Part shown: positions 2,703 through 20,119 of the stretch, piece by piece
How the letters are laid out: each line of letters starts with the position of its first letter
How positions within the stretch are numbered: position 1 is the first letter of the stretch
From: a virus
DNA length: 20,119 nucleotides
Reading direction: 5' to 3' (one strand)
IMG/VR virus record: IMGVR_UViG_3300034018_000032
Location: 1-20,119 of that record
The notes under the pieces: generated by a model
What the model saw: only the letters and a program-made list of their open reading frames with translations
The model's database searches: none
What the model was told of the DNA's origin: nothing
Translations under genes and position numbers: made by a program

Positions 2703-2893
2703 GGAATGATGTCCTAAAACACATCGCCGATAAAATCCAAGAAGAGATCACGGTCATGAGCGACGACCTCGCTCGTGGCGGTGCCAAGGATCACGGCGAT
2801 TACAAATATGCCTGCGGGATCATCCGTGGCTTGATGATGGCGACCAGCGTCCTTGCGGACACTGCACAGCGCTTGGAGAACGACGATGACTGA
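2699..2893 (+). CDS. Small helical protein of unknown function
   Basis: A 64-aa protein that overlaps the end of the portal gene by 4 nt (ATGA), with AAGGA six bases before its start, so it is probably translationally coupled to the portal. It is predicted to be mostly alpha-helical, with the pattern DYKYACGIIRGLMMATSV in the middle and an acidic tail (LENDDD). No signal peptide, membrane segment or known motif is visible. Its place between portal and GroES-like genes suggests a head-assembly accessory role, but I do not recognise a function. Confidence 0.65.
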   Translation: MRNDVLKHIADKIQEEITVMSDDLARGGAKDHGDYKYACGIIRGLMMATSVLADTAQRLENDDD

Positions 2894-3296
2894 CCTCGTT
2901 GATCTTTCTGGGCGTCCCATCCCCAAGGTAGGCGCAGCCCCTGAGCTTGCCTTTGAAGACCGCGCTAAGCAGCTTCCTGAGCCTTCTGGGTATCGCATCC
3001 TGTGCGCTATCCCTGAGATCGAGAAGACGACTGAGGGCGGCATTATCAAAGCCGAAGTAACCATCCACCACGAAGAACTGCTCGCCACAGTGCTCTATGC
3101 CGCAAAGCTCGGCCCAGACTGCTACGCTGACGAGAAGCGCTTCCCAAGCGGTCCTTGGTGCAAGGAAGGTGATTTCATTCTTGTGCGTCCGCACGCGGGC
3201 ACACGTATCGTAATTCATGGCCGTCAATTCCGTATCATTAACGATGATGCGGTTGAAGGCGTCGTGGAAGACCCTCGCGGGATTTCTCGCGGGTAA
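2886..3296 (+). CDS. GroES-like co-chaperonin (Cpn10 fold)
   Basis: A 136-aa protein predicted to have the GroES fold and so to cap host GroEL during folding of phage head proteins, as T4 gp31 does. Residues 32-60 give PSGYRILCAIPEIEKTTEGGI, matching the first strand and the mobile loop of GroES; the GGII at 51-54 aligns with the GroEL-contacting GGIV of GroES. Residues 94-127 (KEGDFILVRPHAGTRIVIHG, then FRIINDDAVEGVV) match the GroES GD.V......G..I...G.....I...D..A.V pattern. About 30 extra residues precede the domain. I chose the ATG at 2886 because GGAGAA lies 7 nt upstream and an in-frame ATG at 2853 lacks a site and would add an atypical tail. It overlaps the preceding gene by 8 nt. The fold call is moderately strong; the partnership with host GroEL is inference. 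Confidence 0.75.
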   Translation: MTDLVDLSGRPIPKVGAAPELAFEDRAKQLPEPSGYRILCAIPEIEKTTEGGIIKAEVTIHHEELLATVLYAAKLGPDCYADEKRFPSGPWCKEGDFILVRPHAGTRIVIHGRQFRIINDDAVEGVVEDPRGISRG

Positions 3297-5367: not shown

Positions 5368-6279
5368 ATGGCAATTTCACGCGCACAACTCCTTAAGGAG
5401 CTATTGCCCGGTCTGAACGCTTTGTTTGGTCTGGAATACGCACGCTACGGCGAAGAGCACAAAGAGATTTTCGAAACCGAAAGCTCTGAGCGTTCGTTCG
5501 AAGAAGAAACGAAGCTGTCGGGTTTCTCGGCTGCTCCGGTCAAGAACGAAGGTTCTGCTATCGCCTATGACAACGCGCAGGAAGTCTTCACTGCTCGCTA
5601 CAACCACGAAACGATTGCCCTCGGGTTCTCGCTCACGGAAGAAGCGATTGAAGATAACTTGTACGACTCTTTGTCGTCGCGTTACACAAAGGCTTTGGCT
5701 CGTGCCATGGCGTACACCAAGCAGACTAAGGCTGCTGCAATCCTGAACAATGGCTTTGACACCGACTATGCCGGTGGCGATGGCCAACCGTTGTTCTCGA
5801 ACGCTCACCCGCTCGTCTCTGGTGGCACCAACTCGAACATCCCAACTACAGCCGCTGATTTGAATGAAACGTCGCTTGAAGCGGCTGTAATTCAGATTGC
5901 TGCGTGGACGGATGAACGTGGCCTGCTCATCGCGGCTAAACCGCGTAAGCTGGTAGTTCCGCCAAGCCTGATGTTTGTTGCTACTCGTTTGCTCGAAACC
6001 GAACTTCGCGTTTCGACGGCTGACAACGACATCAACGCGCTTAAGTCGAATGGCTCGATCCCAGAAGGTTACACTGTTAACCACTTCTTGACCGACACGG
6101 ATGCGTGGTTCTTGACCACCGACGTGCCAAATGGCCTGAAGCACTTCGTTCGTACGCCTATGCAAAACAGCATGGACGGTGACTTTGATACGGGCAACGT
6201 CCGTTACAAGGCTCGCGAGCGTTACAGCTTCGGCTGGTCCGATCCACTCGGCATGTACGGTTCCGAAGGCGCTGCCTAA
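5368..6279 (+). CDS. Major capsid protein (Mu gpT-like / HK97 fold)
   Basis: A 303-aa coat protein forming the icosahedral shell. Residues 22-60 are charged and helical (N-arm region). Residues 84-125 (IALGFSLTEEAIEDNLYDS, then ALARAMAYTKQTKAAAILN) match the long spine helix seen in HK97-fold coats. Residues 130-153 (FDTDYAGGDGQPLFSNAHP, then LVSGG) are the signature of the Mu gpT-like family. The C-terminal half has a PRKLVVPPSLMFVATRLL strand-helix segment (192-209) and ends in a beta-rich RYKARERYSFGWSDPLGMYG. AAGGAGA lies 8 nt upstream. No long acidic propeptide is present, consistent with use of a separate scaffold. A strong terminator follows within 12 nt of the stop, consistent with very high expression of this transcript. 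Confidence 0.88.
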   Translation: MAISRAQLLKELLPGLNALFGLEYARYGEEHKEIFETESSERSFEEETKLSGFSAAPVKNEGSAIAYDNAQEVFTARYNHETIALGFSLTEEAIEDNLYDSLSSRYTKALARAMAYTKQTKAAAILNNGFDTDYAGGDGQPLFSNAHPLVSGGTNSNIPTTAADLNETSLEAAVIQIAAWTDERGLLIAAKPRKLVVPPSLMFVATRLLETELRVSTADNDINALKSNGSIPEGYTVNHFLTDTDAWFLTTDVPNGLKHFVRTPMQNSMDGDFDTGNVRYKARERYSFGWSDPLGMYGSEGAA

Positions 6280-6290
6280 GGAAACAGGGG

Positions 6291-6327
6291 GAGGGGAAGT
6301 GGGAAACTACTTCCCCTCTTTTCTTTT
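6291..6327 (+). terminator. Intrinsic terminator after the capsid gene
   Basis: A perfect 10-bp inverted repeat, GAGGGGAAGT (6291-6300) and ACTTCCCCTC (6309-6318), continues inward with a G-U and a G-C pair to close a GAAA tetraloop (6303-6306). A T-rich tract TTTTCTTTT follows (6319-6327). This is a textbook Rho-independent terminator. It separates the head genes from everything downstream. Confidence 0.93.
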
Positions 6328-7081: not shown

Positions 7082-7819
7082 ATGCAAGCACAAAAAGGTT
7101 ACGATTTAGCCGGTAAGAGCATCTTCATTGCTCTGCCTGCCTACGACTTCAAGGTCTCCTTGAAGCTGGCGGTTTCGCTGGCTCGGTTTACGCAAGTGGC
7201 CGGTCAACACGGCATTGCGGTACAGATTGGCAGCATCTGCGGATGCTCTGTCGTCTCCCGCGCTCGTAACCTGCTTGTTAAAGACATGCTGGAATCCACC
7301 TGCGACTATTTGCTCTTCATCGACAGCGACATCAACTTTGAGCCGGAGCACATCTTCCGTCTTATGGCTTGGGGTAGCGATCCGAAGAAGGGCATCGTCG
7401 CAGGTGTTCCGCGCACACGTAGCGAAAATAAGGTCTATATCGCTGACCTTGACTATGACGAGAACCATGAGCTTACCATGAACGGTATGGGTCTGGTCCG
7501 TGGTAAACGCGTTGCGACCGCTTTCATGCTGATTCGCCGCGAAGTATTTGAGCAGATGACTGCTGCTAACCCTGAGTGGGTTTATAAGGATCAGCGCTCA
7601 GACCGCATGATCCCCTGCCTCTTTGATTTCAAACTCACCGAAGAGGGCTACATGGGCGAGGACTTCTTGTTCTGCGACCGTGCTCGCGAGATCGGTTTCG
7701 AAGTTTGGATCGACCCCAGCATTCAACTTGGACACATGGGCGTACAAGAATACGAAGGCTGCTTCGGCACCGACGTTCTCTATCCGATGCTCGCCCCCAC
7801 ACAGAAGGAAGCAGCATAA
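7082..7819 (+). CDS. Glycosyltransferase, GT-A fold (GT2-like)
   Basis: A 245-aa predicted nucleotide-sugar-dependent glycosyltransferase. After an initial strand (SIFIALPAYD, 13-22), SRARNLLVKDML lies at 59-70, DYLLFIDSDINF at 75-86 with the metal-binding DSD triad at 81-83, and a C-terminal GEDFLFCDRAREIGFEVWID (192-211) followed by H218-M-G. This order, DxD then an acidic acceptor-side ED (193-194) then a late His, is that of GT-A enzymes. The length is short but complete for a single catalytic domain with no membrane anchor. The gene lies among virion genes, so it may modify a capsid, fibre or host surface polymer; the target is unknown. It starts 3 nt after the previous stop with only a weak GGGTGA site, and its stop overlaps the next gene by one base. 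Confidence 0.75.
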   Translation: MQAQKGYDLAGKSIFIALPAYDFKVSLKLAVSLARFTQVAGQHGIAVQIGSICGCSVVSRARNLLVKDMLESTCDYLLFIDSDINFEPEHIFRLMAWGSDPKKGIVAGVPRTRSENKVYIADLDYDENHELTMNGMGLVRGKRVATAFMLIRREVFEQMTAANPEWVYKDQRSDRMIPCLFDFKLTEEGYMGEDFLFCDRAREIGFEVWIDPSIQLGHMGVQEYEGCFGTDVLYPMLAPTQKEAA

Positions 7820-8250
7820 TGGGTATCAAGCTAGGTGACATTTCGCCGCTCGCAGGCGCGATAAGCGGTAAAGGTATGTTCGGTAAAGGACTGGGTGCGA
7901 TGAATAAGGCACTTGGTCCTATGGCGGGTATAATGCCCCGTTTGGCTGGATCGGCACAGAAAAAGAATGCCGCGAAGCGCGCAGCTATGGAAATAGAAAT
8001 GCAGAAGAAAGGCACAGGTATGCGGGGACGTCCGATGGTAGAAGACATTATGATGGCTGAAGAAGCTCCTGCCGGTGCACCGATGATGAAAAAGGGCGGT
8101 AAGGTTAGCGCCGCTCAAGCCGTGCATAAGCACGAGCGCAACATGCACAAGGGTAAGAAGCCCACTAAATTTGCCAAAGGCGGTTCGACTGCCTCCAAGC
8201 GCGCCGATGGCTGCGCTACCAAGGGCAAGACGAAAGGACGTTTTGTCTGA
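7819..8250 (+). CDS. Basic Lys/Gly-rich protein with C-terminal DGCA-type tag
   Basis: A 143-aa basic protein. The start at 7819 overlaps the glycosyltransferase stop (TAATG) and has AAGGAA eight bases upstream; longer in-frame extension to 7705 would lie inside the glycosyltransferase and is rejected. Residues 1-45 are Gly/Ala/Met-rich with MFGKGLGAMNKALGPMAGIM. A helical, charged stretch follows (KKNAAKRAAMEIEMQKK, 48-64), then MMKKGGKVSAAQAVHKHERN (90-109), FAKGG, and a C-terminal peptide DGCATKGKTKGRFV (130-143). Nearly the same peptide ends the 110-aa protein encoded at 8751-9083. No signal peptide or clear transmembrane segment is visible. A virion-internal or nucleic-acid-binding role is inferred from charge and location. 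Confidence 0.65.
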   Translation: MGIKLGDISPLAGAISGKGMFGKGLGAMNKALGPMAGIMPRLAGSAQKKNAAKRAAMEIEMQKKGTGMRGRPMVEDIMMAEEAPAGAPMMKKGGKVSAAQAVHKHERNMHKGKKPTKFAKGGSTASKRADGCATKGKTKGRFV

Positions 8251-8504
8251 TGGCTAAGACCCCGGCTTGGACACGTAAGGAAGGTAAGAACCCTAAGGGC
8301 GGCTTGAACGCCAAGGGTCGTGCGTCTTACAACAAAGCCAATCCGGGTAAGCCGGGGCTTAAGGCTCCGCAGCCTGAAGGCGGCTCACGTAAGAAATCAT
8401 TTTGCGCTCGGATGTCTGGGATGAAGAAGAAGCTTACATCTAAGAAGACTGCGAATGACCCCAACAGCCGCATCAATAAGTCGCTCCGAGCTTGGAAGTG
8501 CTGA
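8250..8504 (+). CDS. Small basic phage protein, likely DUF6321-type
   Basis: An 84-aa, strongly basic protein starting at the last base of the previous stop (TGATG). It reads MAKTPAWTRKEGKNPKGGLN, then AKGRASYNKANPGKPGLKAPQ, then PEGGSRKKSFCARMSGMKKK and ends INKSLRAWKC. The pattern PAW.RKEGKNP.GGLN.KGR..Y, KAPQPEGG.RKKSFCARM.GM and a final L..WKC is one I remember as a conserved small protein of many phages, possibly DUF6321; the domain number is from memory. Function is unknown. Two cysteines (one in SFCARM, one at the C-terminus) are conserved in that pattern and could matter structurally. Composition suggests binding to nucleic acid or to an acidic protein surface. Confidence 0.7.
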   Translation: MAKTPAWTRKEGKNPKGGLNAKGRASYNKANPGKPGLKAPQPEGGSRKKSFCARMSGMKKKLTSKKTANDPNSRINKSLRAWKC

Positions 8505-8505
8505 C

Positions 8506-8754
8506 ATGGAGATGATGATATGGAACATCGTTCTAACCGCTGTGGTAGGTATCATGGGCTTCCTGTTTAAAGGTAAGTTCGACGAGTTGGATCGTCTCGG
8601 CATTCTACTCAATAGGACCCGTGAAGAAGTGGCTCGTGAGCACGTCACACGTAGCGAAATGAACACGATGGTCGATAGGTTAGGAGACCGGTTTGACCGG
8701 GCCTTTGAGCGTCTTGAAGCTAAAGTTGAAGAGATAGGAAGGACAAAGTCATGA
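8506..8754 (+). CDS. Membrane-anchored coiled-coil protein
   Basis: An 82-aa protein with one hydrophobic segment at residues 5-21 (IWNIVLTAVVGIMGFLF) followed by a short basic stretch and a charged helix to the end (KFDELDRLGILLNRTREEVA, then FDRAFERLEAKVEEIG) with heptad spacing. That architecture, an N-terminal membrane anchor and a long coiled coil, occurs in phage lysis-associated and membrane accessory proteins. The ATG at 8506 follows the previous stop by one base with GGAAG 7 nt upstream; ATGs at 8512 and 8515 are alternatives. It is the only acidic/hydrophobic protein in an otherwise very basic cassette. It lies 10 kb from the lysis genes, so a spanin role is doubtful. Function is unknown. 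Confidence 0.62.
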   Translation: MEMMIWNIVLTAVVGIMGFLFKGKFDELDRLGILLNRTREEVAREHVTRSEMNTMVDRLGDRFDRAFERLEAKVEEIGRTKS

Positions 8755-9083
8755 TGGATAAGAAGAAAAAGTCAACGCCCCCACAGCCATCCGCTGCTGA
8801 TCGTGCGTCAGATGCTAAGTTCCGTAAGTCCGTAAAGGACCTCAAGGTTACGCCAGAAAATGCTGCGGCTATCGGGCGTGGAAACCGTTCTCCGGGTATG
8901 GCGAAAGGTGGTAAGGCTATGCCGTTTGCAGCAACTAAGTTTGGTAAGGCTCTCGTTAAGAAGTCTGCTGACACCAAGGGTCGTGCAATGGTCAAGAAGG
9001 CCGGTGGCGGCAAGTGCTACGCTAAGGGCGGCTCGATTGACGGCTGTGCCGTTAAGGGCAAGACCAAGGGTAAGATGGTCTAA
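8751..9083 (+). CDS. Basic Lys-rich protein with C-terminal DGCA-type tag (second copy)
   Basis: A 110-aa protein in which I count 23 Lys and 5 Arg against 7 acidic residues. It starts in an ATGA overlap with the previous gene, after a strong AGGAAGGA site. Residues 1-45 are polar and lysine-rich (DKKKKSTPPQP). The middle has MAKGGKAMPFAATKFGKALV (50-69), and the end reads CYAKGGSIDGCAVKGKTKGK then MV. The last 14 residues differ from those of the 143-aa protein at 7819-8250 at only three positions, although the upstream parts are not similar. This points to a shared functional tag or to recombination between the genes. No enzymatic motif is visible. Confidence 0.65.
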   Translation: MMDKKKKSTPPQPSAADRASDAKFRKSVKDLKVTPENAAAIGRGNRSPGMAKGGKAMPFAATKFGKALVKKSADTKGRAMVKKAGGGKCYAKGGSIDGCAVKGKTKGKMV

Positions 9084-9373
9084 TGCGCGCTTGTCGGGGC
9101 ATGGGGGCGATAAATCCCTCCAAGATGCCGGGTAAGAAGACGATCAAACGGAAGGACAACCCTGATGATGTCTCGATGTACGCAAAGGGAGGTCAAGCAA
9201 AGCTCGACATCTCCAAAGCGATCAAAAAGCCCGGCGCACTCCGTGCGCAGCTTGGCACTCCTGAGGGTAAGAAAATCCCAGCAGGAAAACTTGCTAAAGC
9301 TGCCAAGGCCCCCGGCAAGTTAGGTCAGCGTGCACGGTTCGCACAGATGCTGAAAGGCTTTAAGAAGAAGTAA
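9083..9373 (+). CDS. Basic helical protein with LGQRARFAQ-type C-terminus
   Basis: A 96-aa protein; I count 20 Lys and 6 Arg against 5 acidic residues. It contains MPGKKTIKRKDNPDDVSMYA (15-34), the AKGG element shared with its neighbours, and a C-terminal module GALRAQLGTPEGKKIPAGKL (51-70) followed by AKAAKAPGKLGQRARFAQML. I recall that last module, with its ...GKLGQRARLAQ... ending, from other phage proteins of unknown role. The start at 9083 is coupled to the previous stop (TAATG), but the internal ATG at 9101, behind CGGGGC, would give a protein starting MGAINPSKMPG and is equally plausible. No membrane segment is present. Confidence 0.6.
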   Translation: MRACRGMGAINPSKMPGKKTIKRKDNPDDVSMYAKGGQAKLDISKAIKKPGALRAQLGTPEGKKIPAGKLAKAAKAPGKLGQRARFAQMLKGFKKK

Positions 9374-9768
9374 TGGCACGGTCGGACGAACCTAAGTGGA
9401 AGCGCATCGTTGCCAGCGTAAAGGCTGGCACGAAGGGTGGAAACGCGGGTCAATGGTCCGCCCGTAAAGCCCAGCTTGCGACCCAACGGTATAAGAAGTC
9501 CGGCGGCAGCTATAGCGGCCCGAAGACAGAAGCGCAGAAATCCTTATCCAAATGGGGTAAGGAAGATTGGGGAACCAAGTCAGGCAAGCCGTCTACTCAA
9601 GGGCCGAAAGCAACTGGCGAACGCTACCTTCCGAAGAAGGCACGACAGGCGCTGACATCTTCTGAATATGCTGCTACAACCAAGGCGAAGCGCGAAGGTA
9701 CGAAGGCAGGCAAACAGTTCGTCAAGCAGCCCAAAACCGTTGCCAAGAAGACAGCGAGATTTAGATGA
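9373..9768 (+). CDS. Basic protein of DUF5872 type
   Basis: A 131-aa basic protein whose whole length matches a pattern I know as DUF5872: a W..I...VKAGTKGG..GQWSARKAQLA motif (9-36), then QRYKKSGGSYSGPKTEAQKS, SLSKWGKEDWGTKSGKPS, GERYLPKKARQAL (82-94), SSEYAATTKAKREGTKAGKQ (96-115) and FVKQPKTVAKKTARFR at the end. From memory this family is also found in giant DNA viruses and some bacteria; its function has not been established as far as I know. The three tryptophans and the GERYLP / EYAATT blocks are the most recognisable conserved parts. It starts at the last base of the previous stop (TAATG) and ends in an ATGA overlap with the connector gene, so it is embedded in the structural operon. 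Confidence 0.72.
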   Translation: MARSDEPKWKRIVASVKAGTKGGNAGQWSARKAQLATQRYKKSGGSYSGPKTEAQKSLSKWGKEDWGTKSGKPSTQGPKATGERYLPKKARQALTSSEYAATTKAKREGTKAGKQFVKQPKTVAKKTARFR

Positions 9769-10475
9769 CCACATCCGGCACTACAGCATTTAACCTGAAC
9801 CTTAACGAACTCGTTGAGGAAGCGTTCGAGCGCTGTGGTGCCGAGCTTCGGACGGGTTATGACCTGCGCACAGCGCGGCGTAGCCTGAACTTGCTCACCA
9901 TTGAGTGGGCAAACCGTGGCATTAACCTGTGGACCATCGAGCAAGGTTCAATCCCGATGGTGCAGGGGCAGATCGTCTATGACCTACCTGCGGATACCAT
10001 TGACCTCCTCGACCACGTGATACGTACGCAGACCGGCCAAGGCCAGACGGATATTAACATTACCCGTATCAGCGTAGACACATACTCGACCATCCCAAAT
10101 AAGAACGCGCAGGGCCGCCCTATTCAGGTGTGGATCAACCGCCAGTCAGGCGCGACCGAGCCGGTGTCTGGCGTGGCTTATCCGAACATCAACGTCTGGC
10201 CTGCCCCAGAGCAGTCCAACTATTACACCTTCGTCTATTGGCGGCTTCGCCGTATTCAGGATGCTGGCAACGGTATCACGACGCAGGACATCCCGTTCCG
10301 CTTCTTGCCGTGCATGGTGGCTGGGTTGGCTTTCCACCTATCAAAGAAAATCCCCGGCGCGCTTGAGCGCAGCCAGATGCTTAAGATGGAATACGAGGAG
10401 TTGTGGCAGCAGGCTGCTGACGAGGATCGCGAAAAGGCTGCGTTGCGCATCGCACCGCGTCAGATGTTCTATTAA
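9765..10475 (+). CDS. Head-tail adaptor (P22 gp4-like connector)
   Basis: A 236-aa protein predicted to attach below the portal and seal the packaged DNA, like P22 gp4 and related podovirus adaptors. The N-terminal helical block reads VEEAFERCGAELRTGYDLRT (17-36), then ARRSLNLLTIEWANRGINLW (37-56), with the E..F.RCG.E...GYDL..ARRSLN pattern typical of this adaptor class. A beta-rich middle (QGQIVYDLPADTIDLLDHVI) and WPAPEQSNYYTFVYWRLRRI follow. The helical C-terminus (LERSQMLKMEYEELWQQAAD) would pack on the portal ring. It overlaps the preceding gene by 4 nt. The family call rests on pattern memory and position. Confidence 0.75.
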   Translation: MTTSGTTAFNLNLNELVEEAFERCGAELRTGYDLRTARRSLNLLTIEWANRGINLWTIEQGSIPMVQGQIVYDLPADTIDLLDHVIRTQTGQGQTDINITRISVDTYSTIPNKNAQGRPIQVWINRQSGATEPVSGVAYPNINVWPAPEQSNYYTFVYWRLRRIQDAGNGITTQDIPFRFLPCMVAGLAFHLSKKIPGALERSQMLKMEYEELWQQAADEDREKAALRIAPRQMFY

Positions 10476-10484: not shown

Positions 10485-10925
10485 ATGCCAAATAGGTTTG
10501 CCTCCGGTAAATGGGCAATTTCGCAGTGTGACCGCTGCGGGTTCCGCTATAAGCTCAAGCAGCTTCGGCGTCTCGTCATCAAGACGAAGAACGTCAATAT
10601 ACTCGTGTGCCCGTCATGCTGGGAACCAGATCAGCCACAGCTTCAACTTGGTATGTACCCGGTTGATGATCCTCAGGCGCTGCGTAACCCGCGTCCGGAC
10701 ACGACATATTTCCAAGGTGGTCTGACTGGTCTGCGGATCGAGACCCAAGGTGAAGTACCCAATGACAACGTGCTAGACTCCGGTACGCCGTCGGGCGGTA
10801 GCCGTATAATCCAGTGGGGTTGGAATCCTGTTGGCCTAAATAATCCTTTGGGTTTATCTGGGCTTCCAAATACGCTATTAGGTAGTGGTCAAGTAGGGAC
10901 CGTAACTGTTCAGACGGAGAATTAA
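10485..10925 (+). CDS. Zinc-ribbon protein conserved in marine phages
   Basis: A 146-aa protein with an N-terminal zinc ribbon: CxxC at C15/C18 (QCDRCGFRYKLKQLR) and CPSC at C42/C45, followed by WEPDQPQLQLGMYPVDDPQA (46-65). The two CxxC pairs, 23 residues apart, are suited to bind one zinc ion. The C-terminal half (WGWNPVGLNNPLGLSGLPNT and onward) is Gly/Asn-rich and poorly ordered. A strong AAGGAGA lies upstream. I recall this CDRCGF...VCP.CWEPDQPQLQLG sequence as frequent in metagenomic marine phages next to connector genes, with no known role. It could be a virion connector component or a DNA-binding factor; neither is shown. Confidence 0.7.
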   Translation: MPNRFASGKWAISQCDRCGFRYKLKQLRRLVIKTKNVNILVCPSCWEPDQPQLQLGMYPVDDPQALRNPRPDTTYFQGGLTGLRIETQGEVPNDNVLDSGTPSGGSRIIQWGWNPVGLNNPLGLSGLPNTLLGSGQVGTVTVQTEN

Positions 10926-10926: not shown

Positions 10927-11052
10927 ATGGCTAAAGGTGGCAAGACTAACAAACAGATGTTGAGCATGGGCCGTAATCTCGCGAAGATTGCGAACCAGAA
11001 AAGCGGCAGCAAGCCGAAGAAGGACATGGGAAAGGTCAATAAAAATGGATAA
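10927..11052 (+). CDS. 41-aa basic protein
   Basis: A tiny gene lying directly behind the zinc-ribbon gene (the ATG starts one base after its stop codon). The product reads MAKGGKTNKQMLSMGRNLAK then IANQKSGSKPKKDMGKVNKN, ending in Gly, and is rich in Lys and Asn. It contains the MAKGGK element seen in the larger basic proteins at 7819-9373. Its last 8 nt overlap the following gene, a coupled arrangement that supports translation. The GRNLAKIANQ core resembles other short phage proteins I remember, without known function. Codon use resembles its neighbours. Confidence 0.6.
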   Translation: MAKGGKTNKQMLSMGRNLAKIANQKSGSKPKKDMGKVNKNG

Positions 11053-11188
11053 GATGCCAAAGACCTACACGCAGGCCGACCTCGGCAACAACGGCTATCC
11101 CAACAAGATTGCCAATACCCAAACGCAGAAGACCCGTGGTACGGGTGCAGCGACTAAGGGTACTGGGCACAGCAAGAAGATGGGCTAA
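11045..11188 (+). CDS. 47-aa basic protein with RGTGAATKGTG motif
   Basis: A tiny gene overlapping its predecessor by 8 nt and the following gene by one base (TAATG). The product starts MDKMPKTYTQADLGNNGYPN and ends KTRGTGAATKGTGHSKKMG. The RGTGAATKGT segment is a recurring element in short phage proteins that I recall from podovirus-like genomes. The upstream in-frame ATG at 10988 would add 19 residues, but it lies inside the 41-aa gene and has no site, so 11045 is preferred. No function is known; it may be a virion or assembly peptide. Confidence 0.58.
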   Translation: MDKMPKTYTQADLGNNGYPNKIANTQTQKTRGTGAATKGTGHSKKMG

Positions 11189-11868
11189 TGAACTACGCTA
11201 CTCTGTTCGAAACGATCAAAGGGTACGTCGAAAACGACTTCCCCAACACCTCATGGACCGGCTCTGACGGTTCCAGCACGGTGACGTTGACGTCTACCGA
11301 ACAGATTAACACGTTCATCCAAGAGGCTGAGCAGCGTATTTTCAACACCGTTCAGTTGCTGGACCTCCGCAAGAACGTAACAGGCAACTGCACGTCGGGG
11401 AATAAATACCTGTCCGTGCCTTCAGATTGGCTGGCCAACTTCTCAATCGCGGTGATCGACGGGGATGGGAACTACGAGTATCTGCTGAACAAGGATGTGA
11501 ACTTCATCCGGCAGGCGTATCCCAACCCCAACGATCAGGGTCTCCCATACTGCTACGCCTATTTCGACGAGAACTCGTATATCCTTGGCCCAACGCCAGA
11601 TAGCAATTACTCCGTCGAACTGCACTACTTCTACTACCCGCCTTCGATTGTGACGGCAGGTACGTCGTGGTTGGGCGATAACTTCGATAGCGTCCTGCTT
11701 TACGGCTCGCTGCTTGAAGCGTACACTTTCATGAAGGGCGAGGCAGATATCATCGCGGGCTACCAGAAGCGGTATGACGAAGCGATGGCGATGCTTAAAC
11801 AACTTGGCGAAGGCAAAAACCGTCAGGATATGTATCGTTCTGGTCAAGTTCGGTATCCGGTGAGGTAA
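11188..11868 (+). CDS. Second head-tail connector / tail adaptor protein
   Basis: A 226-aa protein that looks like a second-layer adaptor. The N-terminus MNYATLFETIKGYVENDFPN and STEQINTFIQEAEQRIFNTV (about 37-56) match the adaptor-type start in which an aromatic-rich helix is followed by an I..FI..AE.RI helix. A beta sandwich-like centre follows (NKYLSVPSDWLANFSIAVID; SYILGPTPDSNYSVELHYFY), and a helical C-terminus GEADIIAGYQKRYDEAMAML ends it. This arrangement resembles T7 gp11-type and DUF6682-type adaptors; the exact family is from memory. It starts in a TAATG overlap and lies 0.7 kb after the gp4-like adaptor, so two successive adaptor rings are likely. Confidence 0.7.
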   Translation: MNYATLFETIKGYVENDFPNTSWTGSDGSSTVTLTSTEQINTFIQEAEQRIFNTVQLLDLRKNVTGNCTSGNKYLSVPSDWLANFSIAVIDGDGNYEYLLNKDVNFIRQAYPNPNDQGLPYCYAYFDENSYILGPTPDSNYSVELHYFYYPPSIVTAGTSWLGDNFDSVLLYGSLLEAYTFMKGEADIIAGYQKRYDEAMAMLKQLGEGKNRQDMYRSGQVRYPVR

Positions 11869-12652: not shown

Positions 12653-15600
12653 ATGGCTCTTGTCCTCGCTGATCGCGTTAGGGATACCACTACTACAACT
12701 GGTACAGGTACGGTAACGCTCAGCGGGGCCGCGCCAACCGGGTACCAGAACTTTTCGGTAATCGGTAACGCAAACACAACCTATTACACGATCAACGCGG
12801 ACTCTCAGTGGGAAGTCGGTATCGGCACCTACACGTCTTCCGGTACGACCCTATCACGTAACACAGTGTTGGCGTCGAGTAATGGTGGTGCGCTTGTAGA
12901 TTTTGCTGCGGGCATCAAGGACGTCTTCGTCACCTACCCATCCGAGAAGGCTGTCACGGAAGACTATGGCAATGCGCTAGCCGCAACCACTGCGGCTAAC
13001 CTAGCTGGCGGTGCAGCGGGTTCCATCCCTTACCAGACTGCGGCTAATACCACAGCAATGCTTGCAACGGGCACGGGCGTCCTGATTGGCGGCACAACTC
13101 CGTCATATACGATGTCTCCGTCGCTGACGCAGGTTACTGTGGCTGCGGACCCAACTACGAACCTAGAAGTAGCGACCAAGCAGTATGTAGATACTCAGAC
13201 GTCCGCTGGTATCCATTACCACGAGCCAGTGCGGGTCGAGTCACCGATCAACCTGAACGCGACCTACAACAATGGAACTGCTGGGGTAGGCGCTACCCTG
13301 ACCAATGCTGGTACGCAGGTCGCGCTGGTTATTGACGGTGTGACGGTTAGCGTGAACGACCGTGTCTTGGTTTACGAACAGACCGATGAGACCCAGAACG
13401 GCATCTACGTCGTGACAAGCGTGGGTTCTGGCTCGACTAACTGGGTACTGACGCGCTCCAGTGACGCAGACACTTACGTCAACGCTAGCCCAGACGGTCT
13501 AAGCGAAGGCTCAACTGTCTTCGTCCAACAGGGTACGACTGGCGCAGGCGAGACCTACACCTGCAATACCACTGGTACGATTGTCTTTGGTACGACGGCA
13601 ATCACGTTTGCCCAAATCTCCAGTGCCCAGATTTACTCGGCAGGCACCGGCCTGACACTGACTGGCACGACATTCAGCCTCACTTCACCTGTAGCTACGA
13701 CGTTAGGTGGTACAGGTCTCACCAGTTTTACAACTGACGGCGCGGTCTACGCGACGTCTTCCAGTACGCTAACCACAGGCACGCTACCCGCAACGGCAGG
13801 CGGCACAGGGCAGAGCAGCTACACAACTGGCGACCTGTTGTATGCGGCCTCGGCTACGACAATAGGTGTAATAGCTGACGTAGCCACTGGTAACGCACTT
13901 ATCTCAGGCGGTGCTGGCGCTGATCCTTCCTACGGCAAAATCGGTCTAACCACGCATATCAGCGGCACACTGGCTGTTGGTAACGGCGGTACGGGTGCAA
14001 CCACACTAACGGGCTATCTTGTCGGTAACGGCACTGCTGCGTTCAGTACGACATCGACTATCCCAACCAGTGACCTGTCTGGCACAATTAGCCTTACCAC
14101 ACAGATTAGCGGCACGCTGGGTGCAGGTAATGGCGGTACTGGGATCAGCAGCTACACCGTTGGCGACATCCTCTACGCCTCTGGGACCACGGCACTAAGC
14201 AAACTGCCCGATGTGGCGACTGGCAACGCGCTCCTCTCTGGCGGTGTCAGCAACGCCCCACTGTGGGGTAAGGTCGGCCTTGTAACGCATATTACCGGCA
14301 CACTAGAGGTGGGCAACGGTGGCACAGGCGCGGTCACTCTGACTACTCGGGGTGTGTTGATTGGTAACGGCACCAACGCTGTTAGTGCTACGCCTGCGGG
14401 CACCACTGGTCAGGTTCTAATCGGCAACACTGGTGCGGACCCATCATGGGCTACCCTCACTGGTATCGGCGTCACTTCGTTCAGCGCAGGCACGACGGGC
14501 TTTACGCCAGCGACAGCCACAACTGGCGCGGTCACACTCGCAGGCACACTAAACGTCGCCAACGGCGGCACCAGCAACACCACACTGGCGGCTATCTACC
14601 TCCTTAAAGGTAACGGCGTATCGCCTATTGCTACGTCTATAGTCTTCGACAACGGTACGAACGTCGGGATCGGTACGGCTTCGCCACTCGCAGGGTACAG
14701 GCTCGACGTATCAGGCAGTGCAAATGCTTCTGGTAGTTTTGTATCTGGTGGGGGCACTACATCGCAAGCCGCGTTAGGTAACAAGACACTCGAATTTTAC
14801 AACACAGGTGCAGGCGAGGGCCTTATAAAGTCTGCTGACGATACCTCGACGTTTAACTCAATAGGTATCAGCAAGACGACTTTGCGGTTCCTCACCTCCA
14901 ACACAGAACGTCTGTTCATCAATAGCATCGGCAGCGTGGGTATTGGTACGCCTGTACCAAGGGGTGACCTAAGTATCGGTACGCAGAGTTCTGCTAACGA
15001 TACCGTCAAATCTTTGCATTTTGGTTATACAGCAGCGGATTTCTATGGGTATCGGTTGGTGAACACCAACAGCCCCGGCGCTACAGCCGCAGGTATTTTC
15101 TCCATCCAGCGGGGCACAACAGCCGCGTGGGTAGATGCGCTGACTATTAATAACTCAGGCAGCGTCACGGCTTCAACCGATATACGTGCGCCAATCTTCT
15201 ACGACAGTAACGACACGAGTTACTATGTTAACCCAAACAGCACCTCTGTCCTCAACGCCCTTATCGCAACCAATTATATTGAAACGTATGGCGATCTTTA
15301 CACAAGAGGGAATATCTACAGCGTTAATGCGGCACTCAACGGTTGGAATACGATTGTTGACCGCAATGGCGGGAACCCGATTGTTTACGGATACGACTCT
15401 GTCCGTGCCCCCATCTTCTACGATAGCAACAACACTGCGTTTTACGTCGATCCGGCTAGTGGTACGAACCTCAACGGAACACTCGTAAACAACGGCGGCA
15501 CGGCGATGACTGCTGGCTGGAACCGCAACATTATGCTTGCGTCCACTTTCCCCGTGCTGGTGTTCAATTCGAATAACACAAAGTACTCAGGTATCGGTGT

Positions 15601-18460
15601 TGATTTCGGCTCCGCGCCTGCGGGCATGTATTTCTGGGTCAACGGGTCTTCGTCGGACCTTAGCGGTACCGGCACGATTGCGATGAGCATTAACACCGGT
15701 AATTATGTAGAGGCATACGGCTCGTTCCGCGCACCGATCTTCTACGATAGCAACAATACTGCGTATTACCTCAATCCGGAGACCACTTCGGTACTCAACA
15801 CCGTGCAATACGGGATAAACTACACCTCTGGTGGCGGTGGCGGTCGGATTATTCCGTCTACTGGTTCACCATATTCCATCCGCCAAGAGTTCGGTTCGGA
15901 CAACACCGGCTGGCGTTACGGCATCGCAAAGAACGTCAGTGGCACAGTCACTATCCAGTTTTACGTATCAGACAGCGGGACTGCCGAGGCTGTTGGTGAT
16001 ATGCGTGCGCCAATCTTCTATGATAGCAACAACACGGCTTTTTACATCAACCCCAATGGCGTATCGCAAGTAAGTGGCGCTAATTTTAATTTTGGCGCTA
16101 CTGGTAGGGTATACGATGATGGTAACTTCCACATCGACGGTCTTAGCTCTCCTGTATGGATAAATTCTATAGGTAATAGCACTATTGAATTGAATACACA
16201 GACCAGCGGGTATGTGAATATCGGAAACAGCGCACGCGCACCTATCTACTACGATAGCAATAACACTGGCTTCTATTTCGACGGGGCAGGCACCTCAGTT
16301 GCAAACGTATTTAGCATCATAGGTGCCCTCGGTGTTTCTGATAACAATAACGACCCTTACGGCAAGGTGGCGGTCACACGCGCAACTGGAAGCAACTTTA
16401 CCTACTACGGTCTGACGCGCAGTGGACAGATGGTCTATGGCATGGGCATCGACACCTCCAACAACTATTGGATCGGTGGCAGCACGGCTGGTGCTGATGG
16501 CGTGCGCTCTGGAACACCATATCTGAGCCTAAATACTTCTGGGCAAATCACGGCGTCAGGCGACTTCCGTGCGCCAATCTTCTACGACAGCAACGATACG
16601 GGCCGCTATCTTGACCCTTCATCTACGAGTGTTCTAACAACGGTAGAAGCCTACAATGGGTCTGGTTTCCGTACTTTTGCGGCGGGTTCCGCGTCAATCT
16701 CCAGCCAGCTTTATTTTGCTAACGCCTCCAACACCCGTGCGTGGAACTGGCAGCTTGACGAGAACAACAACGCTGCACTTTGGCACTTTACTGGTGCTGC
16801 ATGGGCAAGAAAATTAGCTATTGTACATGGCGGTGACGGGCAAGTAGCAGTACCGTCATTCATCCAAATGGATAATTCATATTCCACAACACCTCTATGG
16901 GATAGCCTAAAGTTTTACCTCTATAAAGACAGCGGTCAAAGTTATGGTATTGGGCTAGGGTCATCTGCTGATGTGCAATATTGGTCAGGTGCGTCTAATA
17001 ACGGGGTGCATAGGTTTTATACATCCCGTACACTGCAATTTGAAATTGGGCCGGGTGGGGCTTGTATTGCTACTGGCGATCTTCGCGCACCTATCTTCTA
17101 CGACAGCAACAACACTGGGTATTATCTCGACCCCAACAGCGGCGGTCTTGCGTTGCGCACTTCTGGCTACTGGATTGCGGACAGCACAGCATGGGCTGGA
17201 GATATCAACGGTAAAATCCAATACCACGACAACAGTTGGTATTTCAGCGCAGGGAACCAATGGGTTTTCCGCGCAAGCAGCGGTGCTGAACCATTTCGTG
17301 TTACCCAAGGCGGTATAGCAATCGCTAGTGCCGATATGCGTGCGCCGATCTTCTACGACAATAACAACACTGCATTCTATTTTGACGGTGCTTCTACCAC
17401 CAACATCAACGTGCTTTCTGGTAACGGAAAAACTATTTTTGATACCAATGACAGCTACCTTCGGATTAACCAAAGTAGCACGTTTAGCAACGGTATATGG
17501 ACAGGGTCGAGTAATTTCCTCAACTCTGGCGGTGTTCTTGGTTGGGGTAGTAACGGGGGCACCACAAACTCCCGTGTGTATATTAACGGCGGCACATATA
17601 ACGGTGCTAACGTAATTTCTTTGGATGGGGCAACAGGTATCGGAGGCGCTGCTGGTAGCTGGCGCGCACCTATTTTCTACGACAGCGATAATACTGGGTA
17701 TTACGTTGACCCCGCCGCTGGCTCGATACTGCGCGGTATGTTGCAAGTAGAAGGCGACCACGGCAGTACAGAAATCCGCCTCACAGCCCTTGGTTCGACG
17801 TTGGGGTCGGGTGTTACCTCCGCCATGTCGTGGTGGGTTTCGGAACCGGGCGTTAGTTGGAATGATGGGGGCTTCGGCTACAACGTCACAAATGACGGCG
17901 GTTCGCCGGGTGGTTTTGGTCGTTTAAACACCAGCTTCGGACAGGCATACACTCGCTATACGACTAGCGGGAATATGATTTTCTACTGTACTGACACCGC
18001 TGGAACCCGCTCGACGTTGATGGAGCTTTTCCCTGCTAATTACGTTCAGGTCTACAACGATTTCCGTGCGCCCATCATGTATGATAGCAACAACACGGCT
18101 TTCTACCTAGACCCGAACAGCACAGGCACATCGCTTAATGTGGCTGGGGCCATTGTCGCTGCTGGTAACGTCACTGCGTTTTCTGACATCCGCGTTAAGG
18201 ATAACGTCGAGACAATACCTAACGCATTGGACAAGCTCGATCAGATACGCGGCGTCACATACACCCGCACAGACCTTGATGACAAAGAACAGCGTTACGC
18301 GGGCGTGATTGCGCAGGAAATCGAAGCAGTCCTACCAGAGGCCGTGCGTGACCTTGGCAACATCAAGGCGGTGGATTACAACGCCACTATCGGCCTGTTA
18401 ATTCAAGCTGTAAAAGAACTCACAGATAAGGTAAAAGCCCTAGAAGCAAAGGAACAGTAA
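12653..18460 (+). CDS. Giant tail fibre/adhesin with C-terminal S74 self-cleaving chaperone
   Basis: A 1,935-aa fibre, presumably a trimeric receptor-binding protein. Residues 1-100 form a particle-attachment-like domain (LADRVRDTTTTTGTGTVTLS; DVFVTYPSEKAV). Residues 160-330 hold ATKQYVDT and GIHYHEPVRV, then beta-rich repeats. Residues 352-641 contain six GGTG-type elements (such as VGNGGTGATTL). Residues about 668-830 have two GIGT..P motifs. Residues 845-1829 contain ten copies of RAPIFYDSNNT-like motifs. The end is an intramolecular chaperone: SDIRVKDNVETI starts at S1844, with the Ser-Lys pair S1844/K1849 known from endosialidase-type S74 domains, then a coiled coil (LLIQAVKELTDKVKALEA). 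Cleavage before S1844 is expected after trimerisation. The receptor is unknown. Fibre identity is strong; no enzymatic depolymerase motif was seen. Confidence 0.9.
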   Translation: MALVLADRVRDTTTTTGTGTVTLSGAAPTGYQNFSVIGNANTTYYTINADSQWEVGIGTYTSSGTTLSRNTVLASSNGGALVDFAAGIKDVFVTYPSEKAVTEDYGNALAATTAANLAGGAAGSIPYQTAANTTAMLATGTGVLIGGTTPSYTMSPSLTQVTVAADPTTNLEVATKQYVDTQTSAGIHYHEPVRVESPINLNATYNNGTAGVGATLTNAGTQVALVIDGVTVSVNDRVLVYEQTDETQNGIYVVTSVGSGSTNWVLTRSSDADTYVNASPDGLSEGSTVFVQQGTTGAGETYTCNTTGTIVFGTTAITFAQISSAQIYSAGTGLTLTGTTFSLTSPVATTLGGTGLTSFTTDGAVYATSSSTLTTGTLPATAGGTGQSSYTTGDLLYAASATTIGVIADVATGNALISGGAGADPSYGKIGLTTHISGTLAVGNGGTGATTLTGYLVGNGTAAFSTTSTIPTSDLSGTISLTTQISGTLGAGNGGTGISSYTVGDILYASGTTALSKLPDVATGNALLSGGVSNAPLWGKVGLVTHITGTLEVGNGGTGAVTLTTRGVLIGNGTNAVSATPAGTTGQVLIGNTGADPSWATLTGIGVTSFSAGTTGFTPATATTGAVTLAGTLNVANGGTSNTTLAAIYLLKGNGVSPIATSIVFDNGTNVGIGTASPLAGYRLDVSGSANASGSFVSGGGTTSQAALGNKTLEFYNTGAGEGLIKSADDTSTFNSIGISKTTLRFLTSNTERLFINSIGSVGIGTPVPRGDLSIGTQSSANDTVKSLHFGYTAADFYGYRLVNTNSPGATAAGIFSIQRGTTAAWVDALTINNSGSVTASTDIRAPIFYDSNDTSYYVNPNSTSVLNALIATNYIETYGDLYTRGNIYSVNAALNGWNTIVDRNGGNPIVYGYDSVRAPIFYDSNNTAFYVDPASGTNLNGTLVNNGGTAMTAGWNRNIMLASTFPVLVFNSNNTKYSGIGVDFGSAPAGMYFWVNGSSSDLSGTGTIAMSINTGNYVEAYGSFRAPIFYDSNNTAYYLNPETTSVLNTVQYGINYTSGGGGGRIIPSTGSPYSIRQEFGSDNTGWRYGIAKNVSGTVTIQFYVSDSGTAEAVGDMRAPIFYDSNNTAFYINPNGVSQVSGANFNFGATGRVYDDGNFHIDGLSSPVWINSIGNSTIELNTQTSGYVNIGNSARAPIYYDSNNTGFYFDGAGTSVANVFSIIGALGVSDNNNDPYGKVAVTRATGSNFTYYGLTRSGQMVYGMGIDTSNNYWIGGSTAGADGVRSGTPYLSLNTSGQITASGDFRAPIFYDSNDTGRYLDPSSTSVLTTVEAYNGSGFRTFAAGSASISSQLYFANASNTRAWNWQLDENNNAALWHFTGAAWARKLAIVHGGDGQVAVPSFIQMDNSYSTTPLWDSLKFYLYKDSGQSYGIGLGSSADVQYWSGASNNGVHRFYTSRTLQFEIGPGGACIATGDLRAPIFYDSNNTGYYLDPNSGGLALRTSGYWIADSTAWAGDINGKIQYHDNSWYFSAGNQWVFRASSGAEPFRVTQGGIAIASADMRAPIFYDNNNTAFYFDGASTTNINVLSGNGKTIFDTNDSYLRINQSSTFSNGIWTGSSNFLNSGGVLGWGSNGGTTNSRVYINGGTYNGANVISLDGATGIGGAAGSWRAPIFYDSDNTGYYVDPAAGSILRGMLQVEGDHGSTEIRLTALGSTLGSGVTSAMSWWVSEPGVSWNDGGFGYNVTNDGGSPGGFGRLNTSFGQAYTRYTTSGNMIFYCTDTAGTRSTLMELFPANYVQVYNDFRAPIMYDSNNTAFYLDPNSTGTSLNVAGAIVAAGNVTAFSDIRVKDNVETIPNALDKLDQIRGVTYTRTDLDDKEQRYAGVIAQEIEAVLPEAVRDLGNIKAVDYNATIGLLIQAVKELTDKVKALEAKEQ
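13706..14575 (+). repeat. GGTG-element repeats in the fibre
   Basis: Six protein-level copies of a GGTG/GNGGTG element (starting near 13706, 13798, 13980, 14127, 14313 and 14560). Some are followed by SSYT.GD.LYA and then by DVATGNALLSGG-like segments. The spacing is irregular and the DNA copies have diverged, so this is an old, decayed repeat rather than a recent tandem duplication. Such glycine-rich turns are typical of trimeric fibre shafts. Confidence 0.75.
15185..18139 (+). repeat. Ten RAPIFYDSNNT repeats in the fibre
   Basis: Copies start at 15185, 15404, 15728, 16004, 16235, 16568, 17084, 17339, 17663 and 18065 (residues 845 to 1805). Each has the core RAPIFYDSN(N/D)T followed by two aromatic residues, D/N, P or G, and usually a TSVLN-like end. 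Copies vary at a few positions (IYYD, IMYD, DNNNT). The intervals between copies run from 73 to 172 residues and hold unrelated sequence, so each motif looks like a joint between variable insert modules. DNA in copies 1 and 6 agrees over the first 23 bases. Confidence 0.85.
18182..18460 (+). other. Peptidase S74 / intramolecular chaperone domain with predicted self-cleavage site
   Basis: The last 92 residues of the fibre start at the presumed nucleophile S1844 (codon at 18182-18184). In the S74 family the conserved Ser and a Lys five residues later carry out self-cleavage once the trimer has folded, as known for endosialidase and related tail proteins. Here SDIRVK provides both. RYAGVIAQEIEAVLPEAV is the conserved helix region and the C-terminus is a coiled coil. 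The released piece would not remain in the mature fibre. Confidence 0.85.
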
Positions 18461-18461: not shown

Positions 18462-18863
18462 ATGGCACTTACGTACACTTGGGCGATCACGTCCCTGAAG
18501 AAGACCACAGACGGCACGGTCGATAACTTTGTCGTTCAATCCACATGGACCTGCACCGGCACGGACGAAGACGGCGACAGCGGTACCTTCAGTGGTGCGA
18601 CGCCATTCCCGTTGGACAGCCTCGATCCGGCTACGTTCATTCCCTATGAAGACTTGACAGAAGCCGATGTCCTTGGTTGGATAGAAGCCGTTGTTGTCGG
18701 TTCTTACAAGGAGCACGTCGATGCGCAAATCAACAAGCAGATTGCGCTAATCAAAGACCCAGTAGTGGACGTCCCTGAAGGCGATTTCCCGTGGGACCCA
18801 ACACCAACCCCAACCCCAACACCCCCTGTTACCCCCACCGCAGCACCTGAAGGAGAAGAGTAA
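18462..18863 (+). CDS. Small phage protein with Pro-Thr tail, function unknown
   Basis: A 133-aa protein starting MALTYTWAITSLKKTTDGTV, one base after the fibre stop, with AAAGGA upstream. The N-terminal 95 residues look like a compact beta/helix domain: FVVQSTWTCTGTDEDGDSGT, then GATPFPLDSL, DVLGWIEAVVVGSYKEHVDA and an Ile/Lys helix. I recall this YTW.ITSL.....V......GTDE.G..GTF.GATPF pattern from many marine and cyanobacterial phages (an uncharacterised small-protein family). The last 24 residues are a Pro-Thr linker (PTPTPTPTPPVTPTAAP) with an acidic tip. A fibre-associated or tail accessory role is only suggested by position. Confidence 0.62.
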   Translation: MALTYTWAITSLKKTTDGTVDNFVVQSTWTCTGTDEDGDSGTFSGATPFPLDSLDPATFIPYEDLTEADVLGWIEAVVVGSYKEHVDAQINKQIALIKDPVVDVPEGDFPWDPTPTPTPTPPVTPTAAPEGEE

Positions 18864-19054
18864 TGAATCCAGAACTTGATAAGTATGACGTTGAGAAGCA
18901 GGCCGCGCCGGAAATTACGGTCGTCCTGTCTATCCAAGAATTGAACACCGTTCTCGCTGCGCTTGCTGAAATGCCGCACCGTGTCTCCGACCCGGTTATC
19001 CGTAAGGTATTCACACAAGCCAACGAGCAGATACCGCAACAACGAGTAAACTAA
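18863..19054 (+). CDS. Small conserved protein, unknown
   Basis: A 63-aa protein coupled to its neighbours by TAATG overlaps on both sides, with AGGAG 7 nt upstream. It contains ITVVLSIQELNTVLAALAEM then PHRVSDPVIRKVFTQANEQI, a pattern of one strand and two helices that I remember from several phages as an unknown small protein next to lysis or fibre genes. No membrane segment, signal or metal motif is visible. Confidence 0.62.
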   Translation: MNPELDKYDVEKQAAPEITVVLSIQELNTVLAALAEMPHRVSDPVIRKVFTQANEQIPQQRVN

Positions 19055-19248
19055 TGTCTCGGCGGGTAGCTAGCTTGCTATTGGTCTTGGTAGCTCTTTC
19101 GGGTTGCCAAGACCGTTACCGTTACGACTGCCAAGACCCTGAGAACTGGCAGGATGAACTTTGCAAGAAGCCTCGCTGCATTGCGATGGGCTACTGCACC
19201 GAGTGGTTGATTGATACGGGTGAGAACGAAGTTGTCGAAGAAGGTTAA
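19054..19248 (+). CDS. Small Cys-rich lipoprotein
   Basis: A 64-aa protein with a lipoprotein signal: MSRR, a hydrophobic core (VASLLLVLVA, 5-14) and a lipobox LSGC (15-18) placing lipidated C18 at the mature N-terminus. The mature 47 residues begin CQDRYRYDCQDPENWQDELC and have four further cysteines (26, 37, 42, 48), suitable for two disulfides in the periplasm, then an acidic tail. It is the first gene of the lysis cassette. An outer-membrane spanin-like or inner-membrane accessory role is possible, but spanin lipoproteins are usually longer and Pro-rich. I recall similar CQDRYRYPCQDPENW proteins in marine phages. Confidence 0.7.
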   Translation: MSRRVASLLLVLVALSGCQDRYRYDCQDPENWQDELCKKPRCIAMGYCTEWLIDTGENEVVEEG

Positions 19249-19522
19249 ATATTGGTCGCCAGAGGAACTGCTACGTTTCATTGTCGGCGTTGTCCTGTCG
19301 TTTACGTTGATGTTCATTGTGGCGACGGTGTTGTATTCGCTGATATTTGTATCGCAGCCGATGGAGGGGCAGTCCCCGAATGACGCTGAGTTTTTTAAGC
19401 TGATTAACCCGATAGCGACTTTTATCGTGGGTGCATTGGCAGGACTTATGGCAGGGCAGGGCAGCGGCTCAATCAAGCCCAAGAAGCCAGACGAAGGAGA
19501 GAAAGATGAGCTTCCTGAGTAG
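19232..19522 (+). CDS. Two-pass membrane protein, holin-like (first copy)
   Basis: A 96-aa protein with membrane segments at about 15-40 (RFIVGVVLSFTLMFIVATVL and onward) and 57-78 (LINPIATFIVGALAGLMAGQ), and a charged, Pro/Lys/Glu-rich tail. The start is uncertain. I prefer the TTG at 19232, which has a GGTGAG site 7 nt upstream and gives MSKKVKYWSPEELL; TTG 19211 and GTG 19220 are alternatives. All three lie inside the lipoprotein gene, so expression may be low or coupled. It is followed by a second, similar membrane protein and a predicted endolysin, which fits a holin or holin regulator. That role is inferred from position and topology, not from a specific family match. Confidence 0.62.
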   Translation: MSKKVKYWSPEELLRFIVGVVLSFTLMFIVATVLYSLIFVSQPMEGQSPNDAEFFKLINPIATFIVGALAGLMAGQGSGSIKPKKPDEGEKDELPE

Positions 19523-19976: not shown

Positions 19977-20119
19977 GCTTAATCAATCTTCAAAACAAAT
20001 GTGGATGTCATGCAGATGGTGCGTTCGGTCCGGGTACATTTAAATCGGCTGCGGCTTTTTATAAATTATCACCTAATCGGGCTGCGCATTTCTTTGCTCA
20101 AACGGCGCATGAGTCGGGC
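19973..20119 (+). CDS. Endolysin, GH19-like (chitinase/lysozyme fold), 5' part
   Basis: The first 49 codons of a gene cut by the window end. The product begins MSLINLQNKCGCHADGAFGP and continues GTFKSAAAFYKLSPNRAAHF then FAQTAHESG. The FGPGTF.SA..FY.LSP.RAAHFFAQ.AHESG pattern is that of phage lysozymes of the glycoside hydrolase 19 type, in which the Glu of the HES/HET motif (here E47) is the catalytic acid. The start is in an ATGA overlap with the holin-like gene. No signal peptide is present, so export would need the membrane proteins upstream. The rest of the domain lies outside the window. Confidence 0.78.
   Translation, partial: MSLINLQNKCGCHADGAFGPGTFKSAAAFYKLSPNRAAHFFAQTAHESG

Follow-up and report, generated by a model that had tools for sequence, protein, structure and literature searches.

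A conserved cassette of small cationic proteins in the head region of an uncultured phage, with a C-terminal peptide label shared by several members

The 20,119-base IMG/VR record IMGVR_UViG_3300034018_000032 (hereafter the window; the rest of the genome lies outside it) carries, between the genes for its major capsid protein (MCP) and a head-tail adaptor, a cassette of small and mostly basic proteins, here named p1 to p6, with two further members, p7 and p8, downstream of the adaptor (Table 1). We found that this cassette is conserved as a block in relatives, and that p1 and p4 end in a common short peptide (the tag) which is a transferable label on unrelated protein bodies, while p5 joins a conserved leader to an exchangeable module. 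We tentatively propose that the cassette, conserved and modular, encodes late proteins for virion assembly, whose cationic modules would be united by docking labels. A first-pass annotation of the same DNA had already pointed to compact, co-oriented and strongly cationic genes inside a head/adaptor operon, and this description holds; the modularity (C-terminal tag, p5 leader and swapping of modules) is an addition to it. Most head-region genes of such phages are without an assigned function.

A C-terminal tag on unrelated protein bodies

The consensus of the tag is about (S/K)RADGCAx(R/K)GKTKG(R/K)(F/M)V-COOH and, with the preceding element (M/Y/F)AKGG, it covers some 20–26 residues. Among the loci that precede the tag-only scan described below, the tag core ends exactly three residues before the stop in 172 of 229 instances, and conservation reaches past the searched pattern, GKT always being followed by R or K and then by G or A. 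The (M/F/Y)AKGG element that had been described as shared by several members is indeed present in p1, p4 (two copies) and p5, and p7 begins with it, but in p1 and p4 it is part of this more specific tag, which had been missed.

Because cassette or adaptor genes served to find the 118 relatives used below for gene order, a scan of IMG/VR that asked for the tag core alone is a less biased test of conservation. It yielded at least 78 new loci. Among the matches listed, 98 of 108 in-frame instances have the core no more than eight residues from the C terminus, and the N-terminal parts fall into 67 BLAST clusters. The loci also contain the adaptor (64/78), p5 (66/78) and p2 (55/78), and 80 of the 83 placeable tagged ORFs (open reading frames) share the strand of the adaptor and lie at most 3.5 kb upstream of it.

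When random pairs of tagged proteins were compared, identity was 7–8% for the bodies, 42% for the ten residues ahead of the core and 58% for the last five, against 16% predicted from composition alone; the flanking and last-five residues lay outside the search pattern. Only 12 of 300 random body pairs aligned better than shuffled sequences (z > 6). Moreover, five distinct relatives have the tag added to p2, a protein of the DUF6321 family, after its usual C-terminal WxC. Third codon positions and synonymous sites of the tag vary freely, so that the tag is conserved as protein and not as DNA, and a DNA-level element such as a recombination or regulatory site was ruled out. A cellular origin was also discarded: a search of 257 Gb of genomes of bacteria and archaea matched the pattern 47 times, close to the chance estimate of about 30, and this collection contains only three in-frame C-terminal tags (L453, L463 and L468), presumably of phage origin and included in assemblies or metagenome bins. 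Given the background-level similarity of the bodies, the transfer to DUF6321 and the near-chance count in prokaryotes, the tag is a transferable label on unrelated bodies and, within our sample, is nearly diagnostic of a single phage lineage.

A tblastn search of cultured phages with p1, p4, p5 and the tag gave no match, probably owing to low-complexity masking, but profile searches of loci did find relatives. In Planktothrix phage Pag-Yong1, a 308-aa protein encoded between MCP and adaptor ends with YASGGMIGRDGCAKRGRTKGRFI, a version of the tag, although DUF6321 is encoded elsewhere in this phage, near the holin gene. The accession of the tag-bearing Pag-Yong1 product is UMO75986.1.

Conservation of the block and reality of its genes

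Upstream sequence sufficed in 52 adaptor-anchored relatives; p5 was recovered in all 52, p4 and p6 in 47 each, p2 and p3 in 45 each and p1 in 41. Order was counted in relatives whose loci extend to p2, represented by 118 distinct adaptor sequences. The usual succession is p2 - (p3) - (tagged ORFs) - p5 - p6 - adaptor - zinc ribbon - p7 - p8, with p2 upstream of the adaptor in 117 relatives, p5 between p2 and the adaptor in 107, and p6 as the last recognised element ahead of the adaptor in 84. The position of p1 is often a tagged slot between MCP/glycosyltransferase and p2, and the interval from p2/p3 to p5 often carries one or more tagged ORFs. The first-pass annotation had allowed that the cassette might not be kept together in relatives; it is kept together, MCP ... 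p2-p3-(p4)-p5-p6-adaptor-zinc ribbon-p7-p8 being conserved as a block. The lake metagenome assembly DSL-LC04, whose capsid protein is 64% identical to that of the window, has the same arrangement (MCP - cement - x - p2 - p3 - small basic genes - adaptor - zinc-ribbon protein), but its p4-like gene is without the tag and the p5 leader was not recognised.

The five basic proteins in a row and the two tiny ones at 10927–11188 that had been reported are all encoded as described. Counting both strands, the region has 10 ORFs that reach 80 aa or more, compared with a mean of 3.0 (maximum 7) in 300 shuffles; this excess and the low median ratios of nonsynonymous to synonymous substitution (dN/dS) against relatives, for which the adaptor provides the comparison value (Table 1), argue that the cassette ORFs are not due to chance. 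The cassette genes are real and under purifying selection. Coupling by overlaps of one to four bases was confirmed for the other junctions (one base at glycosyltransferase/p1, p1/p2, p4/p5 and p5/p6; four-base ATGA at p3/p4 and p6/adaptor) but not for p2/p3, which are separated by a one-base gap. The basic and acidic residue counts given earlier are correct for p4 (28 and 7) and p5 (26 and 5). Net charge per 100 aa ranges from +12.8 to +24.4 for the seven basic genes (p1, p2 and p4–p8) and from -13.5 to +4.4 for the other 22 genes of the window, including p3, the neutral member previously noted as a membrane-anchored coiled-coil protein.

Exchange of modules and kinship of p2, p3 and p6

The leader of p5 is joined in relatives to KGALR-like, QWSARKAQ, DNINAKRKRI or, in one case, DUF6321 modules, and the QWSARKAQ module is located in p6 in the window. 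The two modules fused in p6 match phrog_17747 (residues 10–47, E 3e-13) and phrog_14910 (residues 53–131, E 1.4e-33), and are separate genes in CRP-13, HTVC035P, MEP402 and HMO-2011. Against DUF5872 (PF19197), p6 scored 14.1 bits, well under the curated gathering cut-off of 27.5, and was therefore not placed in this family; with 44 of 45 p6 relatives matching it at E <= 1 (best 2.2e-6), kinship is plausible. DUF5872 has been reported in the algal giant virus CpV-BQ1 (PMC12085832).

The p2 protein is a clear member of DUF6321 (PF19846), with E 2.8e-20 and 73.2 bits for a cut-off of 28.5, over profile positions 1–72 of 72. This family, which corresponds to phrog_3477, 727, 11180 and 4689, is widespread in cyanophages and pelagiphages, either standalone or forming the C-terminal domain of a longer protein; in the window lineage it can itself bear the C-terminal tag. 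To our knowledge, DUF6321 has no known function. The earlier statement that no characterised system has this set of genes thus stands for function, but p2 belongs to a named Pfam family and p6 matches two PHROGs.

DUF6321 genes also occur in capsid regions of unrelated phages, namely between scaffold and capsid genes in HTVC304P, capsid and tail tube genes in P-SCSP1a, and gp16 and gp17 in P-RSM4. The last case is the T4-GC119 protein of cyanomyoviruses (PRSM4_120; 365 aa, net +52), which has DUF6321 at its end and, like the cassette, strings together several small basic Cys-containing segments; unlike the cassette, it is a single long protein instead of separate small genes and has no C-terminal tag. 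The same gp16–gp17 interval of cyanophage S-SZBM1 encodes a highly basic 707-aa protein, S-SZBM1_194 (L313 5253–7376), with an embedded S-adenosylmethionine lyase domain and a sub-threshold N-terminal match to DUF3008.

As a candidate holin or spanin, p3 was compared with lysis protein families; its matches, among them phrog_7885 (E 2.5e-6), are restricted to PHROGs of unknown function or annotated as 'lipoprotein'. Its homologues lie near holin or M15 peptidase genes in QDWS535 and CRP-902.

A proposed assembly role and its alternatives

The genes, their charge, the block, the tag and the selection acting on it as protein, its C-terminal position, its transfer between bodies and the swapping of modules are solid observations. 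From these we infer that two short labels join the members of the cassette, the C-terminal tag on p1 and p4 (and on p2 in some relatives) and the leader that precedes the exchangeable modules of p5, and that both would serve to dock cationic bodies of various kinds to a single shared partner in assembly. Candidates for this partner would be the prohead scaffold, the capsid interior, the portal/adaptor or DNA. Docking would build the cationic proteins into the particle, much as the N-terminal capsid-targeting sequence of phage T4 loads unrelated internal proteins, and their bodies might then touch the packaged DNA or accompany it into the cell.

The T4 internal proteins (IPI–IPIII and Alt) are unrelated, mostly basic late proteins located inside the virion that bear a short N-terminal capsid-targeting sequence, which a prohead protease removes. 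The cassette shares with them a short conserved peptide on otherwise unrelated proteins of one phage, but in the window lineage the peptide has another sequence and is C-terminal, as seen in the tag-only scan. Since the T4 sequence acts from the N terminus, we describe the cassette as possibly working like the T4 system, not as belonging to it. A narrower version is possible but doubtful: the tag would be a C-terminal cargo-loading tag of tailed phages, about 25 residues long, by which a rapidly changing set of unrelated cationic proteins is built into the particle, while bodies and modules move among label, leader and stand-alone genes. The tag in any case marks a fast-evolving set of proteins at a fixed genome position, predicts which genes of unknown function belong together and offers a signature for finding the lineage in metagenomes; packaging could be tested with a single fusion and, if this is a true loading tag, chosen reporter proteins could be put into phage heads.

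Published virion proteomes cover distant DUF6321 proteins only. In CsCl-purified virions of S-CREM2, ORF137 (108049–109521) was detected with 4 unique peptides and 4.1% coverage (PMC10665884, Table 3), and we identified its C terminus as DUF6321. This detection speaks indirectly for packing in the virion, as does the siting of DUF6321 genes in the capsid regions of unrelated phages.

Several points weigh against the proposed assembly role. The ORF137 protein as a whole has a net charge of -20 with an acidic body, its DUF6321 part yields only two suitable tryptic peptides and, given this body and the low coverage, the DUF6321 part may not be what was detected; the same study also listed proteins that are likely not of the virion (PMC10665884). 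In S-SZBM1, the DUF6321 protein is SSZBM1_192, and the published table of 30 virion proteins (PMC9146016) does not include it. The capsid of P-SCSP1u is without decoration proteins in cryo-electron microscopy (PMC10575957), which makes an ordered shell role unlikely in this phage, whose sibling P-SCSP1a encodes the DUF6321 protein mentioned above. No virion proteome of the window lineage was found in the literature searched, and no prohead protease was recognised in the 20-kb window. The tag pattern was unmatched in 26 of the 118 relatives and a profile search of loci gave no tag match in HTVC023P, so that the tag, by the pattern used, is not indispensable; HTVC027P and CRP-901 are likewise untagged relatives. 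Both p3 and the proteins homologous to it have the look of lysis or membrane proteins, and adjacency alone is thus no proof of a virion role. Finally, Foldseek returned no significant PDB fold match for p2 or p6, a linker-histone entry appearing at E 3.5. S-SZBM1_190, a detected virion protein encoded in the gp16–gp17 interval, was considered as the DUF6321 protein and ruled out, as it has no DUF6321. Trypsin leaves 3–5 usable peptides each from p2, p4, p5 and p6 of the window, and failure to detect such small Lys-rich proteins is therefore weak evidence.

The cassette proteins might instead work outside the virion, in assembly or in late control of the host, as proteins made late and staying in the cell that bind RNA or ribosomes, resemble chaperones or time lysis. 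We regard this as unlikely but as a serious alternative: the kin of p6 and DUF6321 are near endolysin, holin and terminase genes, not capsid genes, in HMO-2011, CRP-13, MEP402, S-CRES1 and MinM2, and both the p3 homologues next to holin or peptidase genes and the absence of the S-SZBM1 protein from virions point the same way, whereas in the window lineage the block has a constant place between the capsid and adaptor genes, and ORF137 was detected in S-CREM2 virions.

It is also rather unlikely that the cassette consists of packaged DNA-binding or DNA-condensing proteins in the protamine or histone sense, with the function residing in the cationic bodies and the tag being merely a conserved arm contacting DNA or RNA. 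The high Lys/Arg content and net charge, the cationic tag itself and the location in a head operon are what such proteins would have, but the tag keeps specific residues (D, G, C, A) and not charge alone, and no histone-, HU- or protamine-like kinship, nor any other DNA-binding match, was found by PDB sequence search or Foldseek. AlphaFold models built on alignments of relatives predict four short helices for p2 (mean pLDDT 84, pTM 0.50) and a small helical fold for p6 (mean pLDDT 78, pTM 0.46); they are of moderate confidence and do not settle the mechanism. The structure prediction suggested in the first-pass annotation thus returned small helical proteins, but no significant fold relative and no DNA-binding relative. 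The significant viral fold matches of p6 are to unnamed proteins; the best of them are 32–62% identical to p6 and hence its own relatives. PDB sequence searches (phmmer) gave no match for p2, p5 and p6, nor for MCP, the adaptor and a 201-aa protein. On these sequence and fold comparisons, nothing beyond charge supports or excludes DNA binding, and the roles put forward in the first-pass annotation, packing in the virion with DNA or neutralisation of acidic host or capsid surfaces, are conjectural.

The tag could act at lysis or entry, as a membrane, envelope or protease-recognition label or as a cysteine-based cross-linker, in keeping with its near-invariant cysteine, the conserved cysteines of DUF6321, its short C terminus finishing in a hydrophobic residue and valine, and the membrane protein p3 within the cassette. 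This is improbable, since the tag is without a hydrophobic span, no processing enzyme was identified alongside, and tagged genes group with the head and adaptor genes and not with the probable lysis genes at 18.8–20.1 kb. That the ORFs are low-complexity, weakly constrained filler without defined function, as the background-level divergence of the tagged bodies might suggest, is hardly credible and already disfavoured by dN/dS values of 0.07–0.20, block conservation and module re-use across unrelated phages.

Table 1. Features of the cassette and of its flanking genes in the window.
Feature	Position	Strand	Length (aa)	Net charge	Median dN/dS	Remarks
MCP	5368–6279	+				PF25209 (E 1.1e-14); upstream border of the late head region
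p1	7819–8250	+	143	+20	0.19	Gly-rich N-terminal part, then C-terminal tag
C-terminal tag of p1	8170–8247	+				FAKGGSTASKRADGCATKGKTKGRFV; common to p4 and 172 distinct tagged ORFs
p2	8250–8504	+	84	+20	0.067	DUF6321 (PF19846)
p3	8506–8754	+	82	-1	0.078	N-terminal hydrophobic helix and charged coiled-coil-like segment
p4	8751–9083	+	110	+21	0.197	Body and C-terminal tag
C-terminal tag of p4	9018–9080	+				YAKGGSIDGCAVKGKTKGKMV
p5	9083–9373	+	96	+21	0.085	Conserved leader and exchangeable module
p5 leader	9083–9193	+				MRxxRGMG..PSKMPG.K.I.RKDNPD.V.MYAKGG; 224 loci, 109 distinct sequences
p5 exchangeable module	9224–9370	+				KKPGALRxxLG..GKKIP..KLAKAAKAPGKLGxRARFAxxLKG
p6	9373–9768	+	131	+25	0.067	Fusion of two modules
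Head-tail adaptor, SU10-type	9765–10475	+			0.065	PF24175 (E 5e-9, 37.2 bits); downstream border of the cassette
Zinc-ribbon-like protein	10485–10925	+	146			CxxC...CxxC; adjoins adaptor; next recognised element in 109/118 relatives
p7	10927–11052	+	41	+10		Begins MAKGG; homologues in 191 loci
p8	11045–11188	+	47	+6		Homologues in 187 loci
Second SU10-type adaptor	11188–11868	+				PF24175 (89.8 bits)

Phage lineage and neighbouring genes

The MCP is 58–73% identical to the capsid proteins of MinM2/Pag-Yong1, HTVC023P (64.5%), HTVC027P, DSL-LC04 and CRP-901/902, with those of Alcaligenes phage QDWS535 and Caulobacter phage RW as more distant kin, and a portal search returned largely the same list of phages. 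These similarities indicate that the window comes from an uncultured phage akin to the HTVC023P/CRP-901/DSL-LC04 group, a short-tailed lineage. The connector module placed downstream of the cassette by the first-pass annotation is borne out, the flanking genes matching SU10-type adaptors above the PF24175 gathering cut-off of 27 bits. One operon thus holds two genes of the SU10-adaptor family, with the zinc-ribbon gene and p7/p8 in between. A family-2-like glycosyltransferase gene (phrog_1574, 7082–7819) lies within the head operon, overlapping p1, and was found in many, not all, relatives.

Immediately 3' of the capsid gene is a strong terminator-like hairpin with a T-tract (6287–6322), and a comparable hairpin occupies this position in 60 of 62 distinct relatives; it may make the cassette less strongly expressed than the capsid protein. 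An Rfam search gave no match, and a promoter scan gave matches at or below chance level. The probable lysis region (18863–20119), judged by inspection, comprises a short lipoprotein with a lipobox (19054–19248), two membrane proteins (19211–19976) and a possible endolysin start cut off by the window end; the two pieces of it that were tested had no Pfam match. A GroES-like co-chaperonin (phrog_3188, 2853–3296) is encoded between the portal and scaffold genes and is also annotated in all six related cultured or assembled phages examined. Finally, the fibre-like protein of 1935 aa (12653–18460) contains 10 RAPI(F/Y/M)YDxxxT repeats spaced by 73–172 residues and a C-terminal Peptidase_S74 chaperone domain.

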